From Chloroflexota bacterium (GTDB lineage Bacteria; Chloroflexota; Dehalococcoidia; Lucifugimonadales; GCA-002694895), in NCBI GenBank assembly GCA_002694895.1, contig NZNN01000057.1:1-13440 (forward strand): a stretch of 13,440 nt of DNA, read 5' to 3'. Below are positions 1 to 13,440 of the stretch, one piece after another (within the stretch, counting starts at the first letter, position 1; every line of letters starts with the position of its first letter). The notes beneath the pieces were generated by a model. That model was not told the origin of the DNA. It saw only the letters and a program-made list of their open reading frames with translations, and searched no databases. The position numbers and the translations under genes were made by a program.

Positions 1-267
1 GTCTAATCCCGACTTGATTAGCTGACCAACCACTTCAAAAGCACGGGGATGTTCTGACTGCTTAGCAATTTCCAACATATCTTCTACTGCGTCTTGATTT
101 CTTTCGATTAGATTATAGTAATTTTCACGGGCATAATTATAATCAATGTCATCATCCTTACCATCAGTTTTCGGTAAAATTCTTGAACTAGGTTCCGGTT
201 TTATTTCCGGAGTTGGAACTAAACTTGTAATTTCTAATATTTCATCTATACGATCATCTACTGTCAT
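1..267 (-). CDS. 16: Terminase small subunit gp16 (T4-like), 5' part only
   Basis: The frame is open from an ATG at 267 to the window edge, giving the first 89 residues of a longer protein. It begins MTVDDRIDEIL, passes through a proline/lysine-rich linker, then has an acidic stretch and the block YARENYYNLIERNQDAVEDM followed by LEIAKQSEHPRAFEVVGQLIKSG. That helical block is the conserved core of gp16 in T4-like cyanophages, as I remember it. gp16 recognises phage DNA for packaging and stimulates the large terminase gp17, whose gene should lie just beyond the left edge. The start is supported by a GAGG Shine-Dalgarno sequence that overlaps the stop of the upstream gene (ATGAGGAAAAATG). Position after gp13-14-15 is the canonical T4 order. 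The C-terminal half is outside the window. Confidence 0.9.
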   Translation of the reverse strand, partial: MTVDDRIDEILEITSLVPTPEIKPEPSSRILPKTDGKDDDIDYNYARENYYNLIERNQDAVEDMLEIAKQSEHPRAFEVVGQLIKSGLD

Positions 268-273
268 TTTTCC

Positions 274-657
274 TCATTGTTTTTCATGCTCATACCAAAT
301 TTGACCCCTTTCTTCTATACATTCAGAGGTTAATGGTTTAATAATATTATGTATTTCTATAGGAGGCCTATCTAAAAATGTTCTAGGTTCATATTTAGCT
401 CTAATCTTATCACATATACAAAAACATTGTCTTGATACATCTTCTTCTTTTAATGTTTTTTTAGTTCTTTTATATTTTGTATTACCTAGAAAGTAAATAG
501 TTTCATAACAAGATTTAAATAACAATAAAATATCTTCGGTTTTATATGTATCTCTTTTAACTATGGTATCGTGTATTATTGCTTCAGTACGTGGTTGCGC
601 ATAACTTAAGGTACTAACAAAAATTATACAAATTGCTAAAAGAATACGGGACAACAT
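274..657 (-). CDS. Small secreted cysteine-rich protein of unknown function
   Basis: The 127-residue product starts with a textbook signal peptide: MLSR, a hydrophobic core LLAICIIFVSTL, then SYA before QP, with predicted cleavage near residue 20. The mature part of about 107 residues is charged and has Cys50, a CxCxC cluster (Cys78, 80, 82) and Cys113, which could form disulfides in the periplasm or bind metal. I do not recognise a named family. It sits between gp15 and gp16 with one base separating it from gp15 and six from gp16, so it is co-transcribed late with packaging genes. The Shine-Dalgarno is weak (TAGA directly before ATG), suggesting coupling to gp15. It has no lipobox, so it is probably soluble after export. 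A role in the host envelope, for example in superinfection exclusion or lysis control, is possible but only guessed. Confidence 0.75.
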   Translation of the reverse strand: MLSRILLAICIIFVSTLSYAQPRTEAIIHDTIVKRDTYKTEDILLLFKSCYETIYFLGNTKYKRTKKTLKEEDVSRQCFCICDKIRAKYEPRTFLDRPPIEIHNIIKPLTSECIEERGQIWYEHEKQ

Positions 658-658
658 T

Positions 659-1606
659 CTACAGATTCACATCTAATCCGGTTGTCAAATTCGTATCAAT
701 ATTGTCATTAAAATATTCAAAGGTTTCTGTATAGCCAAAGTCGTCATTTGCAGTAACATCTCCTGGCTTTGGGGCCATTGTTAATCGTGATTTAATTCCT
801 GAAGCGGCCACTTCTGCTGAACTATCTTCTGTTATGAACTTCATTATTCCTGTTGCGTCTGGAGAATTTGCATCTGCATTTAAAAGTAAATAATTAGTAG
901 AAAAATCTGTACTATCTTCTAAGATAATATACTCTGGCAGCGGTGTCTCATTTCCTCCTGGCATTCTGAGATTCACTATCACCGATTTCGTAACTGACCC
1001 AGACTTAACATCTGGATAAATATATCCTTTTAGTTGAAAAGTAAATGACCATATAATTTCCCTTCTCGCAGTAAAATCTCCCTCATAAGAATCTTCAACT
1101 GTAGTGCCATTTAGTATTATAGAAACATCCGGTTTTATGTTCATAGATGGAACTAAATTCACACTAACTGTAAATTCTGGAGTAAAGAAAGGAACGATCT
1201 GTTCAAATATTTGTGCGCCATCTTCTGAACTGTCTACCATTGCGGTCAAGGCAAAATCAAAATTGTAAGGTACAGGATTATATTGTTTCATGAGTGTAGT
1301 TGAAGATGTTGCATTATTCGCCGCATAAACTTGACCCATTGTATTTAATTTTCTAGTTCCATCATAAGCAATTCCATTCATAACAAAACCCATTCTTGGA
1401 AGACTTACGGCAACACCTCCGTCAGCCTGAACCGCTCTTGTCCGGAGAATCAATTTATCTTTAGCCTCGTATGCAATGGGAACTTTAATTTGTTCTGTTA
1501 TTACTCCACTAGAATCTCTCCTTTGAATGTTTATATCATTAAAAAGAGTCCCGAAAACCGCCACATATTTTCTGATAGTTTCGTGATAATAAGTTATTCC
1601 CAGCAT
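659..1606 (-). CDS. 15: Tail sheath stabilizer / tail terminator gp15 (T4-like)
   Basis: This 315-residue protein is recognisable as T4 gp15, which caps the tail tube and sheath and joins the tail to the neck. The N-terminus MLGITYYHETIRKYVAVFGTLF and the following KVPIAYEAKDKL match the T4 pattern (GDLFSNI, VPITYASKEH). YNPVPY (109-114), QIFEQIVPFFTPEF (132-145) and RREIIWSFTFQLKGYIYP (181-198) are the hallmark segments. The protein is somewhat longer than T4 gp15 (272 residues as I recall); the extra length is in the acidic Asp/Ser-rich C-terminal tail. Its ATG shares one base with the gp14 stop (TAATG), preceded by GGAG at good spacing. The first residues align with T4, which supports this start. 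Confidence 0.93.
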   Translation of the reverse strand: MLGITYYHETIRKYVAVFGTLFNDINIQRRDSSGVITEQIKVPIAYEAKDKLILRTRAVQADGGVAVSLPRMGFVMNGIAYDGTRKLNTMGQVYAANNATSSTTLMKQYNPVPYNFDFALTAMVDSSEDGAQIFEQIVPFFTPEFTVSVNLVPSMNIKPDVSIILNGTTVEDSYEGDFTARREIIWSFTFQLKGYIYPDVKSGSVTKSVIVNLRMPGGNETPLPEYIILEDSTDFSTNYLLLNADANSPDATGIMKFITEDSSAEVAASGIKSRLTMAPKPGDVTANDDFGYTETFEYFNDNIDTNLTTGLDVNL

Positions 1607-2475
1607 TATAGGCTCCCGAATGGATTACCTTCGGTGAAATCAATAATAGCATCAGCGGCCGCTTCTATTTCTGCATTGTCTACAGATGCTGCTGTATCGG
1701 CAGCAGATGTTTGAGCATCAAAAGAGGAAATAGAATAAGACGCACTAGAACTGTCACCAACAATATTTACAGTTCCAGAAAAATTTCCTGTCATGTTTAT
1801 GAGATTTAATAATTTATCAGTAGCATTCCAACTAGACACCTCTCCTTTGACTGTAGCAGCGGCGAGAGATGCCCCCTGATAAACTTGCTCACCAACAGTA
1901 TAGTTACCACTACCCGTATTCATTGTAAAATCAATCGAATAAGATTGTGCTCGTTCAATTGCATCTATAACTTCAATACCGGTATTAAGAGATTGATCTG
2001 AATAAAAGAACATTTCACATAGAAGATCATAAACTTGTAATCCACCAGTTTGATAAAATACAGACTCATCCTCTACAAACATTACTTGGAATAACGATTC
2101 AGTAGTAGGAAAATAAATCAAATCTCCTTCAGCTGGTGCGTCCGCCCTTCCTTCACCTTGAACATTCAACTCTGCCCATCTGCGTCTTGCAACAGTAAAG
2201 GTAATTTGATCTTTTATTTGTAGTCCAAATTTCGAAATAAAATCACCTTCTCCCTCAAATCCATCTACTGATTTAATATACATTTCAATTGTATGAGCAC
2301 TATTATAAGATGAGGTATTATCATCACCCATCAATGTGTCTTCATCATTCAATGTTCTGGGACAATAATATACATCTGTTCCAAAAGTCTTTATTGCTTC
2401 AATATTTAAATTTTCTATTAATCTTTGTTCTGGTGTATTTGTCCCATGAAGATTAAAATACTGATTTGTTGCCAT
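1606..2475 (-). CDS. 14: Neck protein gp14 (T4-like) with an inserted beta module
   Basis: The 289-residue product matches T4 gp14, one of the two neck proteins that close the filled head and provide the tail-docking ring. Conserved stretches include TFGTDVYYCPR (30-40), SVDGFEGEGDFISKFGLQIKDQITFTV (69-95) and EGDLIYFPTTESLFQVMFVE (116-135), the last matching the EGDLIYFP...SLFEI segment of T4. The C-terminus NPFGSL resembles the SPFD-type end of the family. Residues about 190-252 form a Gly/Ser/Thr-rich segment with two GE/GxVNIxG-type half repeats that has no counterpart in T4 gp14. An AGGA Shine-Dalgarno precedes the ATG, three bases after gp13 ends. Confidence 0.92.
   Translation of the reverse strand: MATNQYFNLHGTNTPEQRLIENLNIEAIKTFGTDVYYCPRTLNDEDTLMGDDNTSSYNSAHTIEMYIKSVDGFEGEGDFISKFGLQIKDQITFTVARRRWAELNVQGEGRADAPAEGDLIYFPTTESLFQVMFVEDESVFYQTGGLQVYDLLCEMFFYSDQSLNTGIEVIDAIERAQSYSIDFTMNTGSGNYTVGEQVYQGASLAAATVKGEVSSWNATDKLLNLINMTGNFSGTVNIVGDSSSASYSISSFDAQTSAADTAASVDNAEIEAAADAIIDFTEGNPFGSL
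1720..1908 (-). repeat. Inserted GExxxG/SSSA repeat module in gp14
   Basis: This stretch encodes about residues 190-252 of gp14. It reads as two half-repeats, NYTVGEQVYQGASLAAATV and NFSGTVNIVGDSSSASYSI, separated by a short strand-like linker (WNATDKLLNLINM). The pattern (aromatic, GE-x-hydrophobic-x-G, small residues, A-x-V/I) also occurs twice in the gp13 insert at 3037-3306. It looks like a small beta-rich decoration domain. The boundaries are approximate, judged by eye. Confidence 0.6.
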
Positions 2476-2478
2476 TTA

Positions 2479-3486
2479 TTATCCTATTAAATGATCTACC
2501 GGTAATTCGTACCGTAGTGACATTTCTGTTTGAATGGTTTCTAACTCTGTAGTAGCATCATCATACAACTGTCTTCCATTCATCGTTACCCCACCGGGTA
2601 ATTGCATACCCTCAAACTTGGTAAGATTTTGTCCCCATTGTTTTTTCATCAATGCAGTATTATATCTCTTAAGAAACATATCACTCCAAATATCGGCATA
2701 CGTGGCCGGATCAATAATTTTGTCACACTCAACAACTATCCAATCATCTATACCAGCATCTGCTCCCCATGAAATGTCAAGAAATAATTTATCTTGATGG
2801 CGATTATATCTAAACATTGGAGTTCCTGTAAACATTTCATTAAGCATCATTAAACGTTCTTGTGCCATTTGATAATTTACAAGTTGTCCACCTAATTGAT
2901 GCATCTCCTGCAGAGCAAATTGATACTTAGAGGAAAACATAGAGTTGGATCTAGAATTATCATAGAAAGGAATAATTCTTCGAACTCCAATAATTGCCTC
3001 GGCTATCGATATGTATTTATTGTCAAAATCCCCTATTGCTGTAGCGGTTGATGCGTGAGTTGTTGCGGTTGCTGAACTAGAATCGCCTGTAATGGTTTCG
3101 CCTGTTGAAAAGGTAGTGGTAGTATTTGCATAGTATGTATTACCATCTCCACCAGATTTAACTTCTGGATTTTTATATCTTAATGTAGTATTTGCACTAT
3201 GATATTCATGAACTGTTGCTTGTACTTCACTCGTTCCACCAGTAATTTTTTCACCGGCCGTAAAAGTTCCGGTGGGGGCTCCAGCTAGTTTAAGTGTCGA
3301 ACCTGATATTTGATGTTTTAGAAATGTGTTTTCGGTTGCATCAAAATGATATTCTTGAAAAAATTGAAGTGAATCATCAATACAGTCTTCTACTTGGTCA
3401 TCATCAATATTCAATTCTACTACTGGCCATCCAAGTTTGCGTTTACAATAATCTTTAAAAGTTGATCTAGTAGTTGGTTGTGTCAT
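2479..3486 (-). CDS. 13: Neck protein gp13 (T4-like) with an inserted repeat module
   Basis: The 335-residue product starts with TRSTFKDYCKRKLGWPVVELNIDDDQVEDCIDDSL then FFQEYHFDATENTFLKH, which is the signature N-terminus of T4 gp13 (KFKEYCLRKLGAPVIEINIDDDQ in T4). gp13 and gp14 form the head-tail neck complex. The later part (IGVRRIIPFYD, LQEMHQLGGQLVNYQMAQERL, KLFLDISWG, DIWSDMFLKRYNTALMKKQWGQNL) is the conserved family core with its expected Trp and Lys/Arg residues. Residues 61-150 are an inserted Gly/Thr/Ser-rich segment with two GE-T/K-I-T-G repeats. The ATG overlaps the stop of the upstream gene (ATGA) and has a strong GGAGG 8 bases upstream, so it is both coupled and independently initiated. 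Confidence 0.93.
   Translation of the reverse strand: MTQPTTRSTFKDYCKRKLGWPVVELNIDDDQVEDCIDDSLQFFQEYHFDATENTFLKHQISGSTLKLAGAPTGTFTAGEKITGGTSEVQATVHEYHSANTTLRYKNPEVKSGGDGNTYYANTTTTFSTGETITGDSSSATATTHASTATAIGDFDNKYISIAEAIIGVRRIIPFYDNSRSNSMFSSKYQFALQEMHQLGGQLVNYQMAQERLMMLNEMFTGTPMFRYNRHQDKLFLDISWGADAGIDDWIVVECDKIIDPATYADIWSDMFLKRYNTALMKKQWGQNLTKFEGMQLPGGVTMNGRQLYDDATTELETIQTEMSLRYELPVDHLIG
3037..3306 (-). repeat. Two GExITG repeats inserted in gp13
   Basis: This encodes about residues 61-150 of gp13. Two copies of one pattern are visible: GTFTAGEKITGGTSEVQATV (74-92, within the segment) and TTFSTGETITGDSSSATATT (124-143). They are joined by a longer linker, HEYHSANTTLRYKNPEVK and a glycine-rich turn. 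The second copy shares GDSSSA with the gp14 insert. The conserved gp13 core continues on both sides, so the module sits in an exposed loop. Boundaries are approximate. Confidence 0.6.
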
Positions 3487-3827
3487 TTCGTTGCCTCCGC
3501 AGATATCGTTATAATTCCTTCTGCCAATCGTTCTACTATTGTACCACCTGATTGTGTATATTCAACATCGTAAACATAATTTCCAGGGGAAAGGGCCGCC
3601 GTCTGTGTCGCAGTTAAAGAAATTGTACAATTTGATCCTGCAACGGCGGTAGTTATAGTAGTAATATTATTTGATGAATAGTAAGATTGACGCATCTTAG
3701 CGGCACAAGTACCTGTAGAAATAGTGACATTCTGGCTAACAGAATTTTGTGCGGTAATTACTTTTTCAAACGTGCAACCTTGATCTAATGCAATGTTTAC
3801 AGTTTGTTTTTGGAGGGTCAATGCCAC
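3483..3827 (-). CDS. Small phage structural protein, Ig-like beta fold (predicted)
   Basis: The 114-residue product is rich in Thr, Ser, Ala and Val and has alternating beta strands: KQTVNIALDQGCTFEKVITAQ, VTISTGTCAAKMRQSYYSS, CTISLTATQTAALSPGNYVYDVEYTQSGG, IVERLAEGIITIS. This strand order, including the L-T-x-x-Q/A-T-A-A-L-x-x-G-x-Y-x-Y-D-v-e motif, is common in small virion-associated proteins of marine phages, where it resembles the Ig-like N-domain of baseplate or fibre proteins. A structural or assembly role is inferred from fold and from being the first gene after the late promoter. The start is GTG, chosen because AAGGAG lies 7 bases upstream and no other start is available. Its stop overlaps the gp13 start (ATGA). 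Confidence 0.78.
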   Translation of the reverse strand: MALTLQKQTVNIALDQGCTFEKVITAQNSVSQNVTISTGTCAAKMRQSYYSSNNITTITTAVAGSNCTISLTATQTAALSPGNYVYDVEYTQSGGTIVERLAEGIITISAEATK

Positions 3828-3834
3828 AATCTTT

Positions 3835-3840
3835 CTCCTT
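3835..3840 (-). promoter_or_regulatory. Strong Shine-Dalgarno setting a GTG start
   Basis: The minus strand reads AAGGAG, then AAAGATT, then GTG. This full-length Shine-Dalgarno at 7-base spacing fixes the GTG at 3827 as the start of the 114-residue structural gene. Confidence 0.8.
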
Positions 3841-3844
3841 TTAG

Positions 3845-3879
3845 AATAGTATTTTTTATATAGTTGTTACTATACTATT
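3845..3879. repeat. Nested inverted repeats at the late promoter
   Basis: Arms AATAGTAT (3845-3852) and ATACTATT (3872-3879) are perfect 8-base inverse complements with a 19-base spacer. Inside lies a second perfect 6-base pair, TATAGT (3859-3864) and ACTATA (3869-3874), with a TGTT loop. The right-hand outer arm overlaps the promoter box. All arms are AT-rich and no T-run follows on the minus strand, so this is not a good intrinsic terminator. It may be an mRNA structure in read-through transcripts, or chance in AT-rich DNA. Confidence 0.45.
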
Positions 3880-3883
3880 TATA
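3876..3883 (-). promoter_or_regulatory. T4-type late promoter (TATAAATA) for the neck/packaging block
   Basis: The minus strand carries an exact TATAAATA, the -10-like consensus of T4 late promoters, which are read by RNA polymerase with the phage sigma factor gp55 and the clamp gp45. It is in the 75-base gap between the cargo operon and the first structural gene, and the ATG-proximal distance leaves room for a leader of about 43 bases with a strong Shine-Dalgarno. As expected for T4 late promoters no -35 box is needed. It would drive the 114-residue gene, gp13, gp14, gp15, the secreted protein and gp16. Confidence 0.8.
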
Positions 3884-3902
3884 TCATAGAGAAATCTGTG
3901 GC

Positions 3903-4466
3903 TCACTTTGTAATTATATAATTTCCCATAACTAATGTATCAATATTTGTGCCCATAAACGTTTTTAGTGCGTTTTCAGGAGATTCTATTATGGGCTCAC
4001 CATCAACATTAAATGATGTATTTAATAATATGGGAACATTAGTTTTTGTATTCCATTCGGTCAATAACTGAAAAATCGGTTTATTTAACTCTTCAGTTAC
4101 AGTTTGTATTCTAGCTGAACCGTCTACATGAATTACTGCTGGTACTCGACTTTCTTTCTCTGGCAAAATTTGAGCATTAAACAACATATATGGTGAAGAG
4201 TTTTTGGGAATATCAAACCAATCGTGTATATATTCTTCTAACATGATTGGTGCGTAAGGCCGCCAACCTTCCCTATGTTTTACTCTTTCATTAATATAGT
4301 CTTTATTATTTTTAATAATTGGATTTGCTAATATAGATCTATTTCCTAATGCTCTAGGACCAAATTCACTTTTACCTTGAAACCATCCGATTATTTTGTT
4401 TTCCAATAAATCTTCAACAATAAGTTGACACAATTTATTAAAATCTTCGTAACATGTGTAATTCAT
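3903..4466 (-). CDS. Carbamoyltransferase C-terminal (YrdC-like) domain as a separate protein
   Basis: This 187-residue protein is the complete C-terminal domain of the NodU/CmcH/TobZ O-carbamoyltransferase family. It has KIIGWFQGKSEFGPRALGNR (24-43) followed by SILA, KHREGWRPYAP (63-73), DGSARIQTV (115-123) and LLNTSFNVDGEPI (147-159), all family hallmarks. In TobZ this YrdC-like half makes carbamoyl-adenylate from carbamoyl phosphate and ATP, and the Kae1-like half transfers the carbamoyl group to a hydroxyl. Here the Kae1-like half is a separate gene at 5388-6659, with an oxygenase gene between them. The residues before the first motif (YEDFNKLCQLIVEDLLENK) are the family's normal linker helix, so nothing is missing. 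The ATG follows the upstream stop by two bases (TAATAATG) with no clear Shine-Dalgarno, so translation is probably by re-initiation. Confidence 0.9.
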   Translation of the reverse strand: MNYTCYEDFNKLCQLIVEDLLENKIIGWFQGKSEFGPRALGNRSILANPIIKNNKDYINERVKHREGWRPYAPIMLEEYIHDWFDIPKNSSPYMLFNAQILPEKESRVPAVIHVDGSARIQTVTEELNKPIFQLLTEWNTKTNVPILLNTSFNVDGEPIIESPENALKTFMGTNIDTLVMGNYIITK

Positions 4467-4468
4467 TA

Positions 4469-5386
4469 TTAGTTCACTTGAGGTAATGTTTCTCCCATGA
4501 CATTTCGTGGAGAAATGACGGGCCGATTGTCACGCATAGGTTGCATCTCTGCTGGGTGAAAATTCCAAAATATAACTTGAGAAAGTCTTTTTATATCTAT
4601 TAATTCTTTAATATCAAACAAAGCTGAATGAAACATTCCGCCCATATAAGATACCATTTGATTATATTTACCAGTAGACTCCCACAACAATTCCCATTCA
4701 GCATTATTTGCTAATATACATTCATCATACTTTGGGCTCATGTCAGAATTTTTTAGTACTTCTTTTTTCATCTGCATTGTTGAATTATCAATGGGAGCTC
4801 CACCTTTTTTCTCACAATCAGTTATCCAATCCGACTGTAAATCATCTTGAGGATAACCGACTAAATCAGATTTTCTGTGTCTATATATGCCTGTACCATT
4901 AGTTTCTAATTCATCATCCTTATTTAAATAAATTATAGAAGTAATAAGAGAAGGATCTGAATGTGGAGTATAAGATTCTTTTCTTTGTTCCTTTGTCACG
5001 CCATATTCTTTATCATTGTGAATAACATTTACACAAAACTGATTATTATTAGTTGTTGTGTCGTATGATATCATATCCGTCATTTCTAATTTATGTAATA
5101 ATAACATAGCTAATGTATTTAAAAAATTCTCGTTTCCTATAAAATTATCAATCGTTACTCTATTACCATAATATTTTTCATAATTACAATTTGCGAGTGG
5201 TATAGGTAATGTATTTACAAAATCGTATATTCTATCTGGGTTTTTATATACATTATCTATAATAACAACCGGATATTTCCCCTCTCGATAACCTCCACCA
5301 TGAGGATCTTCCCCACCAATCATTTCAACGCGAACAGTCATTTCTGAACCTAATTCGAACATTGATTCATTATCATAAAATTCCAT
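4469..5386 (-). CDS. DUF6445-like putative Fe(II)/2OG oxygenase between the carbamoyltransferase halves
   Basis: The 305-residue protein has the layout of the DUF6445 family, thought to adopt the Fe(II)/2-oxoglutarate dioxygenase fold. It shows VVIIDNVYKNPDRIYDFV near residues 40-57, HSD (His142, Asp144) followed by a strand and YLN, then GTGIYRHR (164-171), YNQMVSYMGGMFHSA (241-255) with the likely distal His253, and Arg267 in a final strand RLSQVIFWNF. His-x-Asp, distal His and the late Arg form a plausible iron and 2OG site. The substrate is unknown; hydroxylation of a sugar, lipid or peptide side chain would fit. It lies between the two carbamoyltransferase genes, with AAGGA 5 bases before its ATG located in the end of the upstream gene. 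The family assignment is from memory. Confidence 0.75.
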   Translation of the reverse strand: MEFYDNESMFELGSEMTVRVEMIGGEDPHGGGYREGKYPVVIIDNVYKNPDRIYDFVNTLPIPLANCNYEKYYGNRVTIDNFIGNENFLNTLAMLLLHKLEMTDMISYDTTTNNNQFCVNVIHNDKEYGVTKEQRKESYTPHSDPSLITSIIYLNKDDELETNGTGIYRHRKSDLVGYPQDDLQSDWITDCEKKGGAPIDNSTMQMKKEVLKNSDMSPKYDECILANNAEWELLWESTGKYNQMVSYMGGMFHSALFDIKELIDIKRLSQVIFWNFHPAEMQPMRDNRPVISPRNVMGETLPQVN

Positions 5387-5387
5387 T

Positions 5388-6659
5388 TTATTCCTTATAA
5401 TTTTCTAAACAAGTTTTTATATATTCATCACTATATGAACCACCTAAACATCCTTGATTCAAAGGCAATACTAAATCTTCTTCCATCTGTGAGGCGGCCC
5501 ATGATGCTGCCCCAAAACTTAAGCCGTCATCATTAGGAGCAGTATTCACATGAACATCTTCATATATACCTTCAGAAATAATTTTAGAATTGGCTAATAT
5601 ATTTAACGCGCAACCTCCACCAAGACATAATTTTTCCTTTTTAAATTCTTTAGGTATATTTTTTAATAATAAAAGTAAATATTTTTCAAAATTGTATTGT
5701 AACCAATCCGCCAAATCTTCTGGTAAATAGTCTTTACTATTTTGTATTATGTGTATTTTAGTGTCCTTGATAACCTTAATAATAGGAAAATCATCCTCAT
5801 CAAAAATCAACTCATAGATATCTGGAGCATCTATATTTTCATGATTGCCGTATGCCGACAATCCCATAATTTTACCTGGATAAGTTTCTCGCAATTTTGG
5901 ATTGTCATATATATCATCTTCAATATTACTTTTATAATTAGTTATATCAACAAAATCAGAGAATGAATGTATATTCAATACCTTTTTCATAATTTGAGTA
6001 TAATTTTCAGTAACTTGATCTACATCCTCTTCAGACGGAATCACCCCATTGACTTTCATCTCATATATCATTATAGAATATTCTGAATAGACTCCCCCAA
6101 ATGAATTTGTTCCCGCTTCGTTTATATAAGTATTGTGAATATTAGTAAGTGTTTTATCTTTTATACGTGAAGCATTATAGAAAGAAGTATTATTTAACTT
6201 AGGAGCATCCCATTGTTGGTCTGGATGAAAATCACCGGCTCCATCAAATGTAAAAACATTGGCCTCTTCAAATTCTGATGTTAAGAAAGAGGCTGCTGCG
6301 TGAGCTACATGATGATCAACAGTTATTATACGTGCATTGGGAAATAATTGTTTTAATCTTGTTGTTAAATATCCACGTAATTTTAATGCATAACACAATA
6401 ATACCGCTCCCGAAACGTATGCTACCACATCAACATCTTCATTTGTTAAATCATTATCTGTCAGAATTTTTTCTATTGCATTTTCAGGATAACGGCCATC
6501 ATATTTAATTCTTGTCAGTCGTTCTTCAGATAATGCATTCTTTAATTCACCATCAATAAATAACGTAGCGCCTGATCCGTGAACCCAATAATCCACATCA
6601 TTAATCATGCTCCAATTACCATCCCATCCAACAGCTCCCGCTATTCCTAATATATTCAC
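5388..6659 (-). CDS. Carbamoyltransferase N-terminal (Kae1-like) domain as a separate protein
   Basis: This 423-residue protein is the N-terminal ASKHA/Kae1-like domain of the NodU/CmcH/TobZ family. Visible motifs are MNILGIAG at the start, SEERLTRIKYDGRYPENAI (44-62), the metal-site motif DHHVAHAA (115-122), FTFDGAGD (136-143), GKIMGLSAYG (262-271), KLCLGGGCALN (343-353) and NTAPNDDGLSFGAA (372-385), ending at YSDEYIKTCLE. The polypeptide stops exactly at the inter-domain linker, where normal family members continue to the GWFQG domain found here at 3903-4466. Together the halves (610 residues) equal a normal full-length enzyme. The start is GTG at 6659, supported by GGAG 7 bases upstream. 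The gene is in the same frame as the upstream oxygenase, separated by only a stop and one codon. Confidence 0.9.
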   Translation of the reverse strand: MNILGIAGAVGWDGNWSMINDVDYWVHGSGATLFIDGELKNALSEERLTRIKYDGRYPENAIEKILTDNDLTNEDVDVVAYVSGAVLLCYALKLRGYLTTRLKQLFPNARIITVDHHVAHAAASFLTSEFEEANVFTFDGAGDFHPDQQWDAPKLNNTSFYNASRIKDKTLTNIHNTYINEAGTNSFGGVYSEYSIMIYEMKVNGVIPSEEDVDQVTENYTQIMKKVLNIHSFSDFVDITNYKSNIEDDIYDNPKLRETYPGKIMGLSAYGNHENIDAPDIYELIFDEDDFPIIKVIKDTKIHIIQNSKDYLPEDLADWLQYNFEKYLLLLLKNIPKEFKKEKLCLGGGCALNILANSKIISEGIYEDVHVNTAPNDDGLSFGAASWAASQMEEDLVLPLNQGCLGGSYSDEYIKTCLENYKE

Positions 6660-6662
6660 AAA

Positions 6663-7265
6663 TTATCTCCAAGAGGGGCCGTATGACCAGCCATTAACTG
6701 CATATCTAATTCCGCTTGTTACATCAAGTACACGGTGTTTTAAAAAAGACGGAAACATTATCATTGATCCTTGTTTACGGCCATCATACTCAAGTTCACC
6801 ATGTAGAGGATCAAATTCTACCTTACCACCTTCAAAATCTTTATCTCCGTCACTAATTACAACAACTTGAGTAAGTTTTCTTATAAGATTTAGAGTTGGT
6901 TGTGTCCATACATCATCAGTATGCCAATCAAAATGTGGCAATGTACCAGCTGGTGCTTCAGATGGAGCGTATTTTATAACTTGTATATCAGCAAAATCGT
7001 CAGGAGTATCAACACCTTTATATATACTTCTATTAACCGATTTCAAATATGTGTTCATAATAACTCTCAGAGAATTTATCGATTGTATTTTGCACCCTGA
7101 CTGCACTTGCATTGCTTCATCATTAATAAAACAATTTCTTTTTTCATGATATGTTTGATTATTCAGTAGAGCCGGCATCCATTCTAAAGTCTCAAAATCT
7201 TTTTTTAATTGTTCACACAAATCTATTGGTACAGCATTCAAATTTTCGTAAAAATATTGTTTCAT
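6663..7265 (-). CDS. 2OG-Fe(II) oxygenase, prolyl-4-hydroxylase/PKHD type
   Basis: The 200-residue protein has the compact double-stranded beta-helix of phage and bacterial PKHD-type hydroxylases. The iron site is visible as WHTD (His115, Asp117) and the distal His177 in MFPSFLKHRV, with the 2OG-binding Arg187 in the segment TSGIRYAVNGWSYGP. RKLTQVVVISD (129-139) and DFEGGKVEF (143-151) are the usual connecting strands. Such enzymes are frequent in marine T4-like phages, often near tail-fibre genes; their substrates are mostly unknown. AGG lies 9 bases before the ATG. Its stop is 3 bases before the GTG of the carbamoyltransferase N-domain, so the two are probably co-translated and may act on the same substrate. 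Confidence 0.9.
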   Translation of the reverse strand: MKQYFYENLNAVPIDLCEQLKKDFETLEWMPALLNNQTYHEKRNCFINDEAMQVQSGCKIQSINSLRVIMNTYLKSVNRSIYKGVDTPDDFADIQVIKYAPSEAPAGTLPHFDWHTDDVWTQPTLNLIRKLTQVVVISDGDKDFEGGKVEFDPLHGELEYDGRKQGSMIMFPSFLKHRVLDVTSGIRYAVNGWSYGPSWR

Positions 7266-7272
7266 TTTTTGC

Positions 7273-8514
7273 CTAAGTTACTCTGTTAAATCTTTCTTCT
7301 GCATCAATTTCATTTATTGAACTGTCATAATCTGGAACACCAAATGTTCTTTCACACTCATGACAATCATAACATTGTGACCTACAATTTAAAAGTATTC
7401 TATTCAATCTTTTACCCTTTTCAGATAACCAAATCTCATCCCGTAAATGTATATCATGATATTTTTGATATCTGTCAACTGTTAAGTTTGCTTCTTCTCT
7501 TGTTGGTACAAGTACTAACCATTGATCAAAAGGAATGGCATTTGTTTCATAAACACTACTAAAAGATGATGCAGTTAAAGGACCAAACTGTCTCATCAAT
7601 TTTACATTCTGATTTTTAATGTCCTCCTCTGAATATGTATTGTATAACCGACCATCAAATCTACCAGAAGTTTTTAGTATGTCCACTCCTCCCATCTTTT
7701 TATCTAAATACTGATCCAACATTTCTTTATCAGTAGTAACCATGTCAATACCATTTCTTGGTAGCTTGTCCATTTCATCAGATTTCCAATTATTACATGA
7801 AAGAGATGAAAGGGCATTGTCACCACCCCAATAGTTTGCACCTATAACTGTTGATGCCATATCATGTTCTAATTTAAAAGGACATCTATATAAACATCCT
7901 TCTGATACAAGAAGAGAAGTTTTTATTGGTCTTGGTTGTCTTTGTACTAATTTATTTATGCGCCGTAACTCTTTGATGTTTCTATTTAATGAACGATCAA
8001 GAAGTATTGTGTTATATCCAATTCCTATTGTATCGGCTACTTGTTGTCCATCAGATATTATATGATTTACAGTATTCTTCCACTTCATCTTAGGACATCG
8101 ATTTTGTAATTTCATTGTCCTCATCAAATGTTTGGAAGAGATAGTACAACTTCTTAATCCTTTATCATAATATCCCCCAACCCATTCTACAAACTCATCT
8201 TGTAATGCTTGGTCTAAAATTAATTCATCCGGCCAAACTGTTTGATTTATTGTAAGAGAAACTTCAACTCCAAATTCCTCTTGTATACGGAGAAGATTAT
8301 CTATGTGTTCATCAGTTGCTTCCTGTCCCATAGCATTACCAAGAAACTTACGTTGTCTCCTATACGTATAATAAAAGTTTTTGCCAAAGTATATATCTTC
8401 TATTTCATCCAAAATAGATTTTGGAGTATTCTTAAAAATTAGATAATAATGATTTGGACAATTTTCCATATCTTTTTCAGGATGTGCAATCGAAAATCTT
8501 TTTGTAAAATCCAT
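7273..8514 (-). CDS. Cysteine-rich TIM-barrel-like protein, U32-peptidase-like (tentative)
   Basis: The 413-residue protein has repeated strand-helix units: VEVSLTIN (83-90), LRSCTISS (120-127), NHIISDGQQVADTIG, then YNTILLDRSLNRNIKELRRI and IKTSLLVSEGCLYRCPFKLEHD. The last segment resembles the strand and Cys motif of U32 peptidase-like proteins (the UbiU/UbiV/RlhA group), which carry a 4Fe-4S cluster. Cysteines fall at 207, 211 and 240, and at 377, 381, 384 and 387 (CX3CX2CX2C). They could bind iron-sulfur or zinc. There is no CX3CX2C radical-SAM motif at the N-terminus. The function is unknown; a hydroxylation or group-transfer role fits the neighbours. It has a strong AAGGAG and its ATG overlaps the upstream stop (TAATG). 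Confidence 0.6.
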   Translation of the reverse strand: MDFTKRFSIAHPEKDMENCPNHYYLIFKNTPKSILDEIEDIYFGKNFYYTYRRQRKFLGNAMGQEATDEHIDNLLRIQEEFGVEVSLTINQTVWPDELILDQALQDEFVEWVGGYYDKGLRSCTISSKHLMRTMKLQNRCPKMKWKNTVNHIISDGQQVADTIGIGYNTILLDRSLNRNIKELRRINKLVQRQPRPIKTSLLVSEGCLYRCPFKLEHDMASTVIGANYWGGDNALSSLSCNNWKSDEMDKLPRNGIDMVTTDKEMLDQYLDKKMGGVDILKTSGRFDGRLYNTYSEEDIKNQNVKLMRQFGPLTASSFSSVYETNAIPFDQWLVLVPTREEANLTVDRYQKYHDIHLRDEIWLSEKGKRLNRILLNCRSQCYDCHECERTFGVPDYDSSINEIDAEERFNRVT

Positions 8515-9416
8515 TATTCTCCTTGAATATACTTCATATATGTTTCAATAGGTAAAATAGTAGGGGCGCCTTTTAACCAATTATCTTTTTCTTGTTGTAT
8601 TTTAGGATCATCTGTACGCCAAACGATATTGTTATTTAAAAATTCGTATAAGATTATATGATTCCATCTAAGATCGTTGTCATCGACCATGTGAATTAGT
8701 TCTTGAGTAAACTGTGTAGTTACATCAGCAAAATATATATTTTGAATAATACGATAATTTTCTCTTTCCTTTTGTCTCTTAAAATCTACTGCATGATGAA
8801 ACTGTCCATTGAACATAATAAAAGTATTGGGCTCCCCATCTGTATGATATACTTCAGTATAATATTTATCTAAATAATTTTCATAATCTTGAGAGGTTTC
8901 AGGTTTTCCACTAGGAACACTAGTTAAGTTTGGTAACTCCTCTCCGTTATATTGATAAAATGATGTTCCACATCCGCCAGACAAATAAATTTGGCCGTTT
9001 ACAAAATCGTCGCGATGTGGGGGAACACAATTATTAGTTTCTTGTTCAGCTTTTTCGAATATTTCAGGAGTTATTATAGTAAATATTCCTAAAGAATCTA
9101 AGTTATTAGTGGTAGGCGGAAAAGGCATTGCCGTTTCCCTTACAATCTTCCTACCTACTTGAGTAGAAATATACTCTAACATACAATCATCAATATTAGC
9201 AATAGGAGCAAACGCTCTTATTATATTTTGCATTTGAATTATACTTTTATGATCAGTATAATTACAAGATTCTACGTATGTAAGAACATCAACTATATTT
9301 TCATAATAATTTTCTACTTCAACAATCCAATTATCATTATCAAAATATTCAATATAAAGATCTTCTTCTGTATAAGAAGTTTTAAATATTTCAGAAAGAT
9401 CATGTATTGTAATCAT
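8514..9416 (-). CDS. Second DUF6445-like putative Fe(II)/2OG oxygenase
   Basis: The 300-residue protein contains PPHRDDFVNGQIYLSGGCGT (132-151), with His134 and Asp136 as a candidate iron pair, then SFYQYNGE, and later NTFIMFNGQFHHAVDF (197-212) with distal His208 and Arg222 in the strand NYRIIQNIYF. The order H-x-D, YLS/YLN, G-T-x-F/I-Y, F-H-x-A and Arg is shared with the protein at 4469-5386, although overall similarity is low. The first 120 residues are acidic and helical and the last 70 form an extra tail (WRTDDPKIQQEKDNWLKGAP), both without recognised motifs. Substrate unknown. The ATG overlaps the stop of the glycosyltransferase gene (ATGA), with only a weak GGAAA before it. Confidence 0.72.
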   Translation of the reverse strand: MITIHDLSEIFKTSYTEEDLYIEYFDNDNWIVEVENYYENIVDVLTYVESCNYTDHKSIIQMQNIIRAFAPIANIDDCMLEYISTQVGRKIVRETAMPFPPTTNNLDSLGIFTIITPEIFEKAEQETNNCVPPHRDDFVNGQIYLSGGCGTSFYQYNGEELPNLTSVPSGKPETSQDYENYLDKYYTEVYHTDGEPNTFIMFNGQFHHAVDFKRQKERENYRIIQNIYFADVTTQFTQELIHMVDDNDLRWNHIILYEFLNNNIVWRTDDPKIQQEKDNWLKGAPTILPIETYMKYIQGE

Positions 9417-10243
9417 ACGTTTTCCATTGTATCAAAAATTATATCAGGCGAAATATCATTACACATATCATTACTACATGATAAATTTATTTGAAAATCG
9501 TACCCTATCCTTTTGTGATTTTGTTGAGTTTCATTCCACAATACAATAACTTTGTTGTTGTTAGTAGTAGCCGCTAAATGCATCAATGCGGAATCTATAC
9601 ATACTATAAATTTGGCTCCATCTATCAAAGGTATTATGTCTAATACCCCCTCTTCATCTTTTGATGTATATGTTATTGCTGCAGAAGGTTTATATTGATC
9701 ATCACGCCGTAAACATATAACATCTAATTTCAAATTATTTTTAATTTTATGAACTAATTTTTCCGCCAAATCTGGTCGATAATCTCGTTTACCTATATTG
9801 TTTTTGTTATCACCAAAATTTGCATCATAATAATTGGGTGCTCCTGAAAATTGTACAATACAATAATCATTTAATAACTCACTACTTAAATATTTATGCG
9901 CCTGGCCTATATCCAAATTATGATTCAAATAAGGTTTATTTATAACGTTTTTGATTCCATAAGCTTGAGCCCAACTTTCTAATACATGTTTATCTTTATA
10001 TTTCAAGAAGTCAGAAAAATATGGTTCATGATAAATGATATCATCATATATTGTTAGTTGTTCATTAAATGGAAAATCTCTTAGGGGTTCTATGTGATCT
10101 ATATTTTTATTATTATAAAACACAAAAGGCCACGGTGTCATCACAGAAATATTTTCCCCACATTTGACATTTAATTGTTCTATAAGTGATGTCCATATTA
10201 TATTTTTTCCTAATCCACCAACGACAACAAATAAATTTTTCAT
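9413..10243 (-). CDS. GT9/heptosyltransferase-like glycosyltransferase, copy B
   Basis: The 276-residue protein opens with MKNLFVVVGGLGKNIIWTSLIEQL, where GT9 family enzymes have their first Rossmann strand and a Gly-rich loop. It continues with YDDIIYHEPY and DYRPDLAEKLVHKIK, and ends with the donor-site segment KFIVCIDSALMHLAA (211-225; Asp217, Ser218, His222) and KVIVLWNETQ. The D-S-x-x-x-H-x-A segment is the main signature of ADP-heptose:LPS heptosyltransferases. The protein is shorter than typical GT9 enzymes (about 340 residues) and has a C-terminal Cys pair (CSNDMC). It is a clear tandem paralogue of the next gene upstream. The sugar donor and acceptor are unknown. It overlaps both neighbours by four bases (ATGA) and lacks a good Shine-Dalgarno. 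Confidence 0.78.
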   Translation of the reverse strand: MKNLFVVVGGLGKNIIWTSLIEQLNVKCGENISVMTPWPFVFYNNKNIDHIEPLRDFPFNEQLTIYDDIIYHEPYFSDFLKYKDKHVLESWAQAYGIKNVINKPYLNHNLDIGQAHKYLSSELLNDYCIVQFSGAPNYYDANFGDNKNNIGKRDYRPDLAEKLVHKIKNNLKLDVICLRRDDQYKPSAAITYTSKDEEGVLDIIPLIDGAKFIVCIDSALMHLAATTNNNKVIVLWNETQQNHKRIGYDFQINLSCSNDMCNDISPDIIFDTMENV

Positions 10244-11082
10244 TTCATAATTTCTAATATCTTATCAAACACTTCATTGGCCGGAGTATCAATACACAAC
10301 TCAGTATCACAAAGAATATTTTCTTGAAAATCATAACCAATTCTATTAGGTGTGGTTTGGTTTGTATTCCAAAGAACAACTGTGGGTTTATCTTTTACAT
10401 AGGCGGCAAAGTGCATTAGAGCGGAATCTATACATATCACAAACTTTGCTTTTATTACTAAAGGTACGATTGCTAATACCCCCGATTCCATTTTAGATCT
10501 AAATGTTATAGTGCCTGATGGTCTAGGTTCATGTTCATATCTAAAACAAACACAATCTAAATTAAAATTGTTTTTTATTTTAGCATTTAATCTTTCTACT
10601 AAATCTGGCCTATAATCTCTTGGACAAAGCTGGTTTTCACCATGTCTCCCCATTCCACCAGTAAATTGTATTATATAATAGGGGGTTTCTAATCGTTCAC
10701 TTAATTCAAAACTCTCATTTCCTGTTATCTTCAATCCGGAATATACACCGACTGGTGGATTTAATATTGGTCTTGGTGGTACTCTTTCTATACCATAAGC
10801 ATCTGCCCAATTATCAAGCATGTGCTGATCTTTTTCTTTTAAATAATCTGATAGATAGGGTTCATGATATATGATTTTATCATATATTTCTAATTGGGGG
10901 AAATATCTAAAATCATAAAGAGGTTCATGATTCTCTATTAAATTGTGTTTATTAAAAAGGAAAGGCCATGGCGACATTACTGAGATTTTGTCAACTCCAT
11001 CTTTTTTACAAAGACTAGGAATTAAGGAAGTCCAAAGTACGGCCTTCCCCAATCCTCCCATTACGACATATAAGTTTTTCAT
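10240..11082 (-). CDS. GT9/heptosyltransferase-like glycosyltransferase, copy A
   Basis: The 280-residue protein parallels its downstream neighbour along the whole length: MKNLYVVMGGLGKAVLWTSL, ISVMSPWPFLF, IYDKIIYHEPYLSDYLKEKD, WADAYGIERV, RDYRPDLVERLNAKIKNNF, and KFVICIDSALMHFAAY (213-228; Asp219, His224) then TVVLWNTNQTTPNRIGYDFQENI. The C-terminal CDTELC pair is also shared. The donor-binding end is GT9-like; the N-terminal GGLGK replaces the usual GIGD-type loop. It probably transfers a sugar, perhaps to host lipopolysaccharide or to the phage's own proteins or precursor. No Shine-Dalgarno is visible; it starts within an ATGA overlap with the upstream gene. Confidence 0.78.
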   Translation of the reverse strand: MKNLYVVMGGLGKAVLWTSLIPSLCKKDGVDKISVMSPWPFLFNKHNLIENHEPLYDFRYFPQLEIYDKIIYHEPYLSDYLKEKDQHMLDNWADAYGIERVPPRPILNPPVGVYSGLKITGNESFELSERLETPYYIIQFTGGMGRHGENQLCPRDYRPDLVERLNAKIKNNFNLDCVCFRYEHEPRPSGTITFRSKMESGVLAIVPLVIKAKFVICIDSALMHFAAYVKDKPTVVLWNTNQTTPNRIGYDFQENILCDTELCIDTPANEVFDKILEIMK

Positions 11083-12050
11083 AATATTGAATTTATTTCG
11101 TATACTACTTCATCTACAAGAGGCCAAACATCTTTTCTGGCATTTTCTGGCATGAGACAACATCTTTGATTTAGATCATCTGGAACATAGAAACTTCCTT
11201 TATCAATACAAGGCGGTTGACCACAATGCCGTATTGCTTCTAAATTTATATTGTGTTCATGTCCATGTGTTTTAGGATTAGAACTACCCCACAACACAAT
11301 ACCTTTTTTATTTGAATGTAATGATACGTGAGCAACAATTGAATCGATAGCAACAAATGTGTCTGTACATTCAAGCAAATATGCAACTTGTCTAATATTA
11401 ATCATGTCTCTTAAGTCAAAACAATTTTCGGCCTGAACATGAAAATCTGGAACTATTCTTGAAGGTTTGTCTTGAGGTGGTTCTTCTTTTGTTCCGACCT
11501 GAATAAAATTAGCATTAGGTAATTTTGTTGTTAACTCATGCCACCATTCATAATTAGGAGTTTTCCCATAAGGAAACTTATAAGGATGTCCCGTATGTAA
11601 AACTATAGTCGGCCCTTTAGCTGGTTGGAAACTTCCAGAAGAAAAGTAGATATCATTATTTAAAAATTCATCTACTAGATGTTTTTCTTCATCAGTTATA
11701 TTTAAACGGAAGATATCGGGAAATTTATCTCTATCTAATGTAATATCTAAATTATCAGAAATAATTTCCCAGAAATGTTTTTTTGGGGGATAGAATAAGG
11801 TGATGCCGTGTTTTTGAATATCCCAATTATAAACTCTATCAAAACGATTTATCGGATATTCAGTTTCAAAGGTGTTTATATAATTATCAAACCACTTTTT
11901 ATTATATGCAATATTTTTTATTGAATTGGTAGATAATAAGGTAATATTATCATCTTTGTATTTACTTCTTAGTGCATCAAATAAAGGGAACAACAGATAA
12001 AAATCACCTATACCACAAGAATCGTGGTAATAATATAAAATATTTTTCAT
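11079..12050 (-). CDS. GT9/heptosyltransferase-like glycosyltransferase (divergent third member)
   Basis: The 323-residue protein has the classic GT9 order: MKNILYYYHDSCGIGDFYLLFPL with GIGD at 13-16, TIVLHTGHPYKF (148-159) at the start of the second Rossmann domain, WWHELTTKLPNANFIQVGTKEE (169-190), DLRDMINIRQVAYLLEC (212-228) and TFVAIDSIVAHVS (231-243; Asp236, His241), then KKGIVLWGSSNPKTHGHEHN. C-terminal cysteines (276, 281, 297, 298) resemble the Cys pattern seen after the donor site in heptosyltransferases. It is closer to canonical GT9 than the two downstream copies. It is the first gene of the cargo block, only eight bases after the tail-assembly-like gene, with no visible Shine-Dalgarno and no separate promoter. 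Confidence 0.82.
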   Translation of the reverse strand: MKNILYYYHDSCGIGDFYLLFPLFDALRSKYKDDNITLLSTNSIKNIAYNKKWFDNYINTFETEYPINRFDRVYNWDIQKHGITLFYPPKKHFWEIISDNLDITLDRDKFPDIFRLNITDEEKHLVDEFLNNDIYFSSGSFQPAKGPTIVLHTGHPYKFPYGKTPNYEWWHELTTKLPNANFIQVGTKEEPPQDKPSRIVPDFHVQAENCFDLRDMINIRQVAYLLECTDTFVAIDSIVAHVSLHSNKKGIVLWGSSNPKTHGHEHNINLEAIRHCGQPPCIDKGSFYVPDDLNQRCCLMPENARKDVWPLVDEVVYEINSIL

Positions 12051-12058
12051 AAAATAAT

Positions 12059-12508
12059 TTAATCGTCTTTAGATTCTCTCATGAATTGATTTCCTGTTTG
12101 CCAATTGCCATCCACATCAACAGAGTCTTTTTTTCTATATGCTGTTGGATCAGGAGGAAGTGTGGGATCATAAATATCAAAATCAGCAATACGACATGCT
12201 AAAGGAGGAATTTCACCTACTTGTTTCATTATTATAACCCATCCTTCGGGGTTATCAGGCCGATCAACTCCAACTATATCTTCACCCGTACCAGTAAAAT
12301 TAATATTCTTTTTAGGACCGATAGCAATATCAACCCATGCTTTCCGATATGCTTTCCAATTCGCAATATCTGTTTCACTAAGCCCCCAGGGGTTATCATC
12401 AGCAATGAAAGACCTACTGATTTTCATTTCACATCTAGCTATATGCAATAAAAGATGTAAGGTATATCCTTTATCTATTTTCCATTCAACTGCTGCAGGT
12501 GTGGCCAT
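12059..12508 (-). CDS. Small tail-assembly-chaperone-like protein, paralogue 2
   Basis: This 149-residue protein shares a core with the next gene upstream: CEMKISRSFIADDNPWG (26-42), WKAYRKAWVDIA (51-62), then P-NPEGW (84-90) and IPPLACR. The pattern R-x-E-x-x-x-x-S followed by W-x-x-YR-x-x-x-x-D resembles the phage tail assembly chaperone/tail-fibre-assembly domain (W-x-x-YRQALRDI). It is therefore best read as a fibre assembly or structural accessory protein. The tail KDSVDVDGNWQTGNQFMRES is unique to this copy. The ATG has AGGAG at suitable spacing. The family assignment is by motif only. Confidence 0.65.
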   Translation of the reverse strand: MATPAAVEWKIDKGYTLHLLLHIARCEMKISRSFIADDNPWGLSETDIANWKAYRKAWVDIAIGPKKNINFTGTGEDIVGVDRPDNPEGWVIIMKQVGEIPPLACRIADFDIYDPTLPPDPTAYRKKDSVDVDGNWQTGNQFMRESKDD

Positions 12509-12530
12509 TTTTTAATTCTCCTCTTATGTG

Positions 12531-12929
12531 TTAAGCTACGCCAGATTGATCTTGAGTTTGTGACTCTTGTATTTCCGAATCAGGATCATAGCCATCTATA
12601 TTAGTCCTAGTTAATACGGGTGGTAAGTCATCCTCTGCTCGTACAATAAAATCCCATCCATCTGGAACCTCTGGTATGTCTATACCACCTAACATCATGT
12701 CATTTTGCATAACGATAGATACGCCAGATAAATCTGATCTTGCAAGGTCACACCATGCCTTTCGGTAAGCCTTCCAAGAAGTTAATTCTGCTGCGGTGCA
12801 CCCCCAGGGATTGTCTCCATCCACAACGGATTGTGTCATTTCTAATTCCGCTTGGGCCCGAAGCATAAGTTTATATCTTATATCAGACATAAAATTTTTG
12901 ACACCTTCGTTCTGTGTGTTCTCTGCCAT
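12531..12929 (-). CDS. Small tail-assembly-chaperone-like protein, paralogue 1
   Basis: This 132-residue protein has RAQAELEMTQSVVDGDNPWG (24-43) and WKAYRKAWCDLA (52-63), then IPEVPDGWDFIVRAEDDLPPV. The same order is present in the downstream paralogue, so the pair arose by duplication. The W-x-x-YR-x-x-W-x-D core resembles tail assembly chaperone domains found next to tail-fibre genes. The C-terminus is a low-complexity Glu/Gln/Ser tail. Its position directly after a fibre-like protein supports a fibre-assembly role, which is inferred. AGGG lies about 8 bases before the ATG. Confidence 0.65.
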   Translation of the reverse strand: MAENTQNEGVKNFMSDIRYKLMLRAQAELEMTQSVVDGDNPWGCTAAELTSWKAYRKAWCDLARSDLSGVSIVMQNDMMLGGIDIPEVPDGWDFIVRAEDDLPPVLTRTNIDGYDPDSEIQESQTQDQSGVA

Positions 12930-12956
12930 GTTATATTCCCTTAATTTTTATTATTA

Positions 12957-13440
12957 TTAATAGTTTGATTCTTCTTCATAGTATAACCATGAAGTAACTG
13001 TAAATCCCGTAGGCACTACTTGAGTCCAAGATGTAGAACCATGTACTCCTATAGCCGTGCATGTTGCTGAGTATCCCCTTGCTGTACCATATCCGTATCC
13101 ATAACCGAAACCATATCCATAACCAAAACCGTATCCATATCCACCTAAACCACAATATCTTGCACAGTAATGAGCACAGTATCTAGCACAGTAATGGGCA
13201 CAATATCTTGCACATATATGGGGAATCCACCCGCAATTCCAAAGGCTTCCTCCTGTAGTTCCACTATCTGCGGCTCCATCAGTACCACTATCTGCGTGTC
13301 CTTCTGTACCAAACATATTTGCTGTTGTTCCAGAACCGGTTGATGTTGCTTGTGTCGAACCAGTCGTTGCTGTTTCTCTAGCTTCTAATAATTTACAAAC
13401 ACCATGTGCCAACCAAGTTTTCCCTGCAGGAATCGTAGTA
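12957..13440 (-). CDS. Fibre-like structural protein with Cys/His and Gly/Tyr repeats, C-terminal part
   Basis: The frame is open to the right edge: residues TTIPAGKTWLAHGVCKLLEA continue past a TTG at 13412, so this is the C-terminal part of a longer protein, not a gene starting there. IPAGKTW-type segments are typical of marine phage virion proteins. Next comes a low-complexity linker (ATTGSTQATSTGSG, with two ADSGT repeats), five CARY/CAHY tetrads ending in Cys, an alternating Gly-aromatic run, and a short end domain (STSWTQVVPTGFTVTSWLYY). The repeats suggest a thin fibrous stalk with a small tip. No family was recognised. A tail-fibre or virion-surface role is inferred from composition and from the chaperone-like genes that follow. 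Confidence 0.7.
   Translation of the reverse strand, partial: TTIPAGKTWLAHGVCKLLEARETATTGSTQATSTGSGTTANMFGTEGHADSGTDGAADSGTTGGSLWNCGWIPHICARYCAHYCARYCAHYCARYCGLGGYGYGFGYGYGFGYGYGYGTARGYSATCTAIGVHGSTSWTQVVPTGFTVTSWLYYEEESNY
13086..13142 (-). repeat. Gly-Tyr/Phe alternating repeat
   Basis: Codes for GYGYGFGYGYGFGYGYGYG: nine Gly-aromatic dipeptides with Phe at the third and sixth. At DNA level it is a run of imperfect six-base units (CCATAT/CCGTAT/CCATAA/CCGAAA on the plus strand). Alternation places all glycines on one face and all aromatics on the other face of an extended strand. Confidence 0.9.
13152..13214 (-). repeat. Cys-Ala-(Arg/His)-Tyr tetrad repeat
   Basis: Five tetrads CARY, CAHY, CARY, CAHY, CARY followed by a sixth Cys. 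Arg and His alternate strictly, giving a 24-base higher-order unit. Every fourth residue is Cys. Synonymous differences (TGT/TGC, GCA/GCT/GCC) between units show that it is maintained as protein, not only as a recent DNA slippage product. Confidence 0.9.

Follow-up and report, generated by a model that had tools for sequence, protein, structure and literature searches.

The window described here is the whole 13,440-base stretch that was analysed (bases 1-13440 of the 16,511-base contig NZNN01000057.1), and it encodes the two halves of a carbamoyltransferase as separate genes. The Kae1-like transferase half (N) and the YrdC-like half (C) lie on either side of a gene for a DUF6445-type protein, and we consider it likely that the two halves together make up a single O-carbamoyltransferase of the TobZ/GdmN class, each being one subunit. 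The case is built from domain content, active-site residues, gene order, selection and co-occurrence, all read from sequence, and from these we infer the docking of the chains, their chemistry and their acceptor. Although the contig belongs to a bacterial assembly (1.05 Mb, 65% complete), the gene content of the window is that of a T4-like phage.

Domains and residues of the two halves

The N gene (5388..6659, minus strand, GTG start) encodes a stand-alone protein of 423 amino acids (aa) with PF02543 (E 3.6e-31) and no second domain, and the C gene (3903..4466, minus strand, ATG start) encodes a stand-alone protein of 187 aa with PF16861 (Carbam_trans_C, E 4.5e-68) only. The gene between them (4469..5386, minus strand, ATG start, 305 aa) matches PF20043 (E 5.2e-08, 33.5 bits against a gathering score of 24) and is a probable Fe(II)/2-oxoglutarate oxygenase. 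The Pfam matches of all three exceed the gathering scores, each gene has its own start and stop, and the spacings N/oxygenase/C are 1 and 2 bases. Shine-Dalgarno-like sequences, read by eye, precede N (GGAGA) and the middle oxygenase (AAGGAA), with a weaker one before C. The initial annotation of this DNA had described complete Kae1-like and YrdC-like halves as separate genes around an oxygenase, and the open reading frames and Pfam domains confirm it.

On alignment with GdmN, residues H116, H120, D139 and D377 of N mapped onto H133, H137, D156 and D333, indicating that they are likely metal ligands, and H27 aligned with GdmN H27 of the N-terminal acceptor loop, a likely general base. Ligands and general base were kept in 44/44 rows of stand-alone N (43 distinct; one row is cut and the D377 region is missing), while the fused rows used for comparison kept the first three ligands in 171/171. 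Conserved YrdC residues were kept in 59/59 rows of stand-alone C, duplicates counted. The earlier statement that all visible motifs are present therefore stands for the stand-alone halves checked. The C profile matched VtdB-type 7xb6, NovN, GdmN and TobZ (E 6.8e-70 to 2.1e-51), and C would be expected to make carbamoyl-adenylate. Scores with models of related families stayed below cut-off, for N with TsaD (21.2 bits, cut-off 296.1), for C with PF01300 (16.6 bits, cut-off 25.1) and with HypF (26.3 bits, cut-off 466.1); with the NodU equivalog NF041651 (cut-off 1000) C scored 130.8 bits and N 36 bits.

TobZ, GdmN, NovN and VtdB, class III O-carbamoyltransferases of the NodU/CmcH family, are single chains, as are the class III structures found here, whereas the window has two genes with another between them. 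The metal ligands, general-base histidine and YrdC-like domain of class III are present and the one-chain architecture is absent, and because there are two genes we regard the pair as a split variant rather than a standard member of the class. In the synthesis of N6-threonylcarbamoyladenosine (t6A), the YrdC-like TsaC/Sua5 and the Kae1-like TsaD (Kae1) are likewise distinct proteins that share an adenylate intermediate, but N and C of the window fall under the TsaD and PF01300 cut-offs, respectively. TsaN (8ide) is, by its title, a natural TsaD-TsaC fusion and so the reverse arrangement. No description of a two-gene class III carbamoyltransferase was found in the openly licensed literature accessible to us, which omits most subscription papers.

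Conservation and recurrence of the split

The order N, oxygenase, C was found in 12/12 close contigs whose surroundings were retrieved (N 71-100% identical). These were 11 distinct IMG/VR contigs (L002-L007 and L013-L017, the N of L017 being cut by the contig end) and one contig (L095) of a Pelagibacterales metagenome-assembled genome (MAG). All 12 contigs with N of at least 71% identity are split, and the nearest fused relative among the matches listed, P0014, is 54% identical in N. As a separate observation, P0014 (616 aa) has an internal Met exactly at the start position of stand-alone C, as re-fusion would leave.

Ratios of nonsynonymous to synonymous substitution (dN/dS) against five relatives, obtained by a simple counting method with partial saturation once dS exceeds about 0.6, were 0.10-0.30 for N and 0.10-0.14 for C (one comparison undefined), compared with 0.11-0.15 for the neck gene gp14 against the same relatives. 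Both halves are under purifying selection. In an alignment of 13 split loci, the window included, the break point fell in the variable inter-domain linker, with N retaining the conserved LG..Y...I segment and C starting right after it; a split at the domain boundary, as first described, is thus correct at the resolution of the linker. The two-gene arrangement is old and has been maintained. Our searches brought up no close relative with an intact single-chain gene, and this copy showed neither relaxed selection nor a decayed site.

Stand-alone halves were present in 42 of 145 distinct viral contigs, 28 repeat retrievals of the same contigs having been removed by hand, and the other 103 carried fused genes only. 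Because only the best 80 loci of each list of relatives (of at least 449, of 222 and of 264) were taken, this sample is biased and 42/145 is not a frequency. The layouts of the 42 contigs were N..C (15), N-C-N (nine), C-N (six), fused gene with N and C (five) and fused gene with N (three), with fused+N+N+C, C+N+C (first C cut), N+fused and fused+N+fused seen once each. In 42/42 the other domain was encoded on the same stretch, alone or within a fused neighbour. Among genome loci (best 80 of 222) a single one was split, the phage-like L095. The C domain was missing from 97 of the best 120 database matches to N, these 97 being 367-449 aa long, while fused proteins measured 539-615 aa in viral contigs (one more was cut by the contig end) and 501-598 aa in named phages, plus one of 766. 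The view that family members are normally a single chain thus holds in that most relatives retrieved are fused, but the split is common in phages, and the rarity implied by the initial annotation is wrong, since the split turns up repeatedly among phages, a GenBank cyanophage record included.

That record is the cultured cyanophage S-SCSM1 (NC_070962; locus L257, 2205-5787), which has thyX, C, N, C and N in a row, the halves being gp175-gp178, all annotated as Nol-like carbamoyltransferase. As in the window, C and N stand alone and the main N residues are kept, but the halves are directly joined beside thyX with no oxygenase between them, and they are far from the window clade. Carbamoyltransferase and related terms were absent from the main text of the S-SCSM1 paper on a term search (PMC9602691). 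In Sf-FS3 a separate N gene accompanies a fused one, and in AG-345-D19 C is followed by N. AG-345-L05, which among named phages is the nearest relative, has a fused gene (N 31% and C 50% identical). PHROGs contains a C-only family, phrog_20469. Further C-only proteins, such as P0153 and P0225, lie on long contigs, some named Lachnospiraceae or Dorea, and may be independent bacterial splits.

Of 250 non-redundant rows the N tree used 187, since 63 of the 75 fused rows from genomes were dropped at random, and its split rows include database proteins judged solely by the missing C domain. It required at least 16 changes between split and fused, 11 of them forced by well-supported branches, where shuffled labels gave 61. 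The smallest of the large, well-supported groups that include the window comprised 81 split and nine fused rows. There were eight changes in the C tree, four of them forced. From the changes in both trees, fission and fusion have probably both happened repeatedly. The N group around P0035 held database proteins only, and a viral scan with P0035 gave the fused L025 as its best match.

Two N domains accompany one C domain in three places of the family. L024 has two N genes (57% identical) followed by C, with a distant fused gene upstream. Nine contigs (L239-L241, L244-L246, L249, L250 and L252) have N-C-N with overlapping gene ends, the two N being 36-41% identical in the four compared. Five contigs pair a fused gene with an N-only gene, which in the four compared shares 59-65% identity with the N part of its fused neighbour; L193 carries another fused gene as well, and L047 is cut. 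Both N of the two-N loci keep the ligands wherever these are visible, and a TsaB-like degenerate partner in the N-C-N loci was rejected, neither N having lost its active site.

N diverges faster than C, chiefly in its middle part, which is also true of some fused pairs. Compared with the window, L023 and L175 are 81% and 79% identical in C, 83% in the conserved protein S encoded upstream of N and 53% in N, and the neck genes of L175 are 88-92% identical. The ratio of N to C distance is 3.2 for L023 and 2.9 for L175, where the median of 230 pairs is 1.58, and fused pairs reach 4.4 (L025-P0066) and 3.2 (L238-L036). L023 and L175 are 76% identical to each other in N, 95% in C and 99% in S, so that they differ mostly within N. 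We considered an exchange of the N subunit in these two loci and set it aside; fast divergence of N is evident, and because fused pairs are equally skewed, the two loci differ mostly in N and the tree test given below is one-sided, an exchange is not.

The two-N loci support the idea that acceptors may have diversified over a constant activator. A wider and tentative reading, which we put at somewhat below even, is that phages carry modular O-carbamoylation, in which one general C could serve at least two acceptor-specific N, and the split would let N duplicate, swap and combine with tailoring enzymes in the slot between the halves (DUF6445-type oxygenase, tryptophan halogenase). The window cluster would then be the version with a single N, a single C and an oxygenase between them.

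Proposed chemistry, acceptor and neighbouring genes

In the two-subunit enzyme that we favour, C would turn adenosine triphosphate and carbamoyl phosphate into carbamoyl-adenylate, and metal-bound N would transfer the carbamoyl group onto an acceptor hydroxyl. Carbamoyl-adenylate is labile and for this reason the chains would have to dock, with their active sites facing as in the domains of one-chain enzymes. A gene cut at the flexible linker would leave N free to duplicate, diverge and re-pair while C stayed constant, and the oxygenase in the slot would be operon cargo which probably oxidises the same acceptor.

Several points weigh against this. N and C of the window are not adjacent, the oxygenase gene separating them, and the end of N, about 20 residues, is poorly modelled and aligns with distant regions of GdmN and TobZ. 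The C data reject the N grouping, in which L023, L175, L180 and P0014 cluster without the window (p 0.006), while the C grouping is compatible with the N data (p 0.139), a one-sided result; the trees thus differ, and the two halves may at times have been inherited separately. The acceptor, finally, is a guess from gene context.

That context runs, on the minus strand, from three GT9-like glycosyltransferases through a phrog_1644 protein, S, a 2-oxoglutarate (2OG) oxygenase, N, the DUF6445-type gene and C to the neck genes. Glycosyltransferases A (9413..10243, PF01075 E 2e-06), B (10240..11082, 19.1 bits, under the cut-off of 22 and homologous to A) and C (11079..12050, E 9.3e-07) are followed by the 300 aa phrog_1644-type protein (8514..9416, H134-x-D136) and by S, a conserved Cys-containing protein of 413 aa (7273..8514, phrog_1458). 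S adjoins N on the upstream side in L023, L175 and L180; its single match among solved structures (E 0.15) is not meaningful, and its Cys clusters presumably recall U32-type Fe-S proteins. The 2OG-Fe(II) oxygenase immediately upstream of N (6663..7265, 200 aa, PF13640 E 7.8e-10) had no match in L023, L175 or L180. Downstream of the cluster lie T4-like neck genes (1606..3486; phrog_460 E 3.9e-87, phrog_211 E 6.7e-39), comprising head closure Hc2 (1606-2475) and head-tail adaptor Ad2 (2479-3486), together with tail sheath stabiliser and small terminase genes. All of the genes listed are on the minus strand.

At the upstream end of the operon (12957-13412, minus strand) is a Cys/Tyr/Gly repeat protein (ARYCAHYC, GYGYGFG) with DNA repeats of 24 bases; it has no match in Pfam and may be the tip of a tail-fibre adhesin. 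Phage contigs inside bacterial MAGs were seen both here (G000, contig C52) and for L095, whose placement in a Pelagibacterales MAG is a weak hint at the host.

Because the cluster includes three GT9-like glycosyltransferases and lies among the late virion genes, we take the acceptor most probably to be a glycan, or else some part of the virion or host surface that is glycosylated or oxidised. WapO-type carbamoyltransferase of the Pseudomonas lipopolysaccharide core, which according to PMC8005017 places carbamoyl on heptose and is encoded beside heptosyltransferases, is likened by description and is a functional precedent only. A DNA base as acceptor is improbable in our estimate. The phage 5-hydroxymethylcytosine carbamoyltransferase belongs to the same domain family, the C-N-C-N genes of S-SCSM1 follow a ThyX-type thymidylate synthase gene, and a deoxycytidylate-deaminase-type gene lies near the N-C-N genes of L241. 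That enzyme, however, is one chain of 63 kDa, and its contig also encodes a thymidylate synthase homologue, whereas family scans of the window genes, covering only 13.4 kb of the phage genome, gave no thymidylate synthase or deaminase, and the neighbours are glycosyltransferases, oxygenases and virion genes; non-modifying copies sit by glycosyltransferases, according to PMC8670742.

The slot between the halves and remaining alternatives

The middle protein has the motif H142-x-D144 ... H253 ... R267, its predicted structure is too poor for a firm fold, and its profile gave no match to PDB sequences at E 10. Both it and the 8514-9416 protein match phrog_1644, labelled minor coat protein, yet resemble oxygenases, and that label may be wrong.

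The initial annotation had suggested the oxygenase as a possible third subunit, and an obligate one, bridging N and C or channelling a hydroxylated product, would account for its position with gaps of 1-2 bases in the window and all 12 close contigs, and for the relative of it in the slot of L180. Against this, N and C overlap without an oxygenase in L023 and L175, a tryptophan halogenase is exactly in the slot in L026 (8969-10648), and N and C are joined directly with nothing between in L028, L029, L030, L185 and L197. The oxygenase also evolves faster (dN/dS 0.28-0.44) and has seven homologues at E 0.001 compared with 743 for N. We therefore think a three-protein complex unlikely; the middle oxygenase looks like operon cargo, possibly acting on the same acceptor as N and C. 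L175 also has a tryptophan halogenase gene, at 5121-6731.

Equally unlikely, in our judgement, is that the halves work independently, with carbamoyl-adenylate diffusing from C or with N borrowing a host YrdC-type activity. In t6A synthesis TsaC and TsaD do exist as separate proteins (PMC10321239), and extra N genes without their own C exist in L024, the N-C-N loci and the loci with fused gene and N; against this, each of the 42 contigs with a stand-alone half encodes the other domain, the intermediate is labile, and one-chain relatives hold both sites on one chain. A recently broken gene, an assembly error or a pair of decaying remnants, for which a truncated carbamoyltransferase (sxtI) reported in another cluster (PMC3037375) would speak, is very improbable because the order is shared by 12 more contigs, the residues are intact, selection is purifying and split forms are spread widely over the N tree.

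The two-subunit O-carbamoyltransferase first raised as plausible is thus supported, at the level of sequence, by the conserved split, the residues, purifying selection and the presence of both domains in 42/42 contigs. Passage of carbamoyl-adenylate between active sites is hard to study while the sites are inseparable, and a natural two-chain form would open docking, channelling and acceptor specificity to direct tests and would offer a swap-in system to carbamoylate chosen acceptors. It would be a second natural case, beside TsaC/TsaD, in which a YrdC-like protein and its Kae1-like partner are separate chains and, if one C does serve several N, this would explain phage N genes which have no C of their own.
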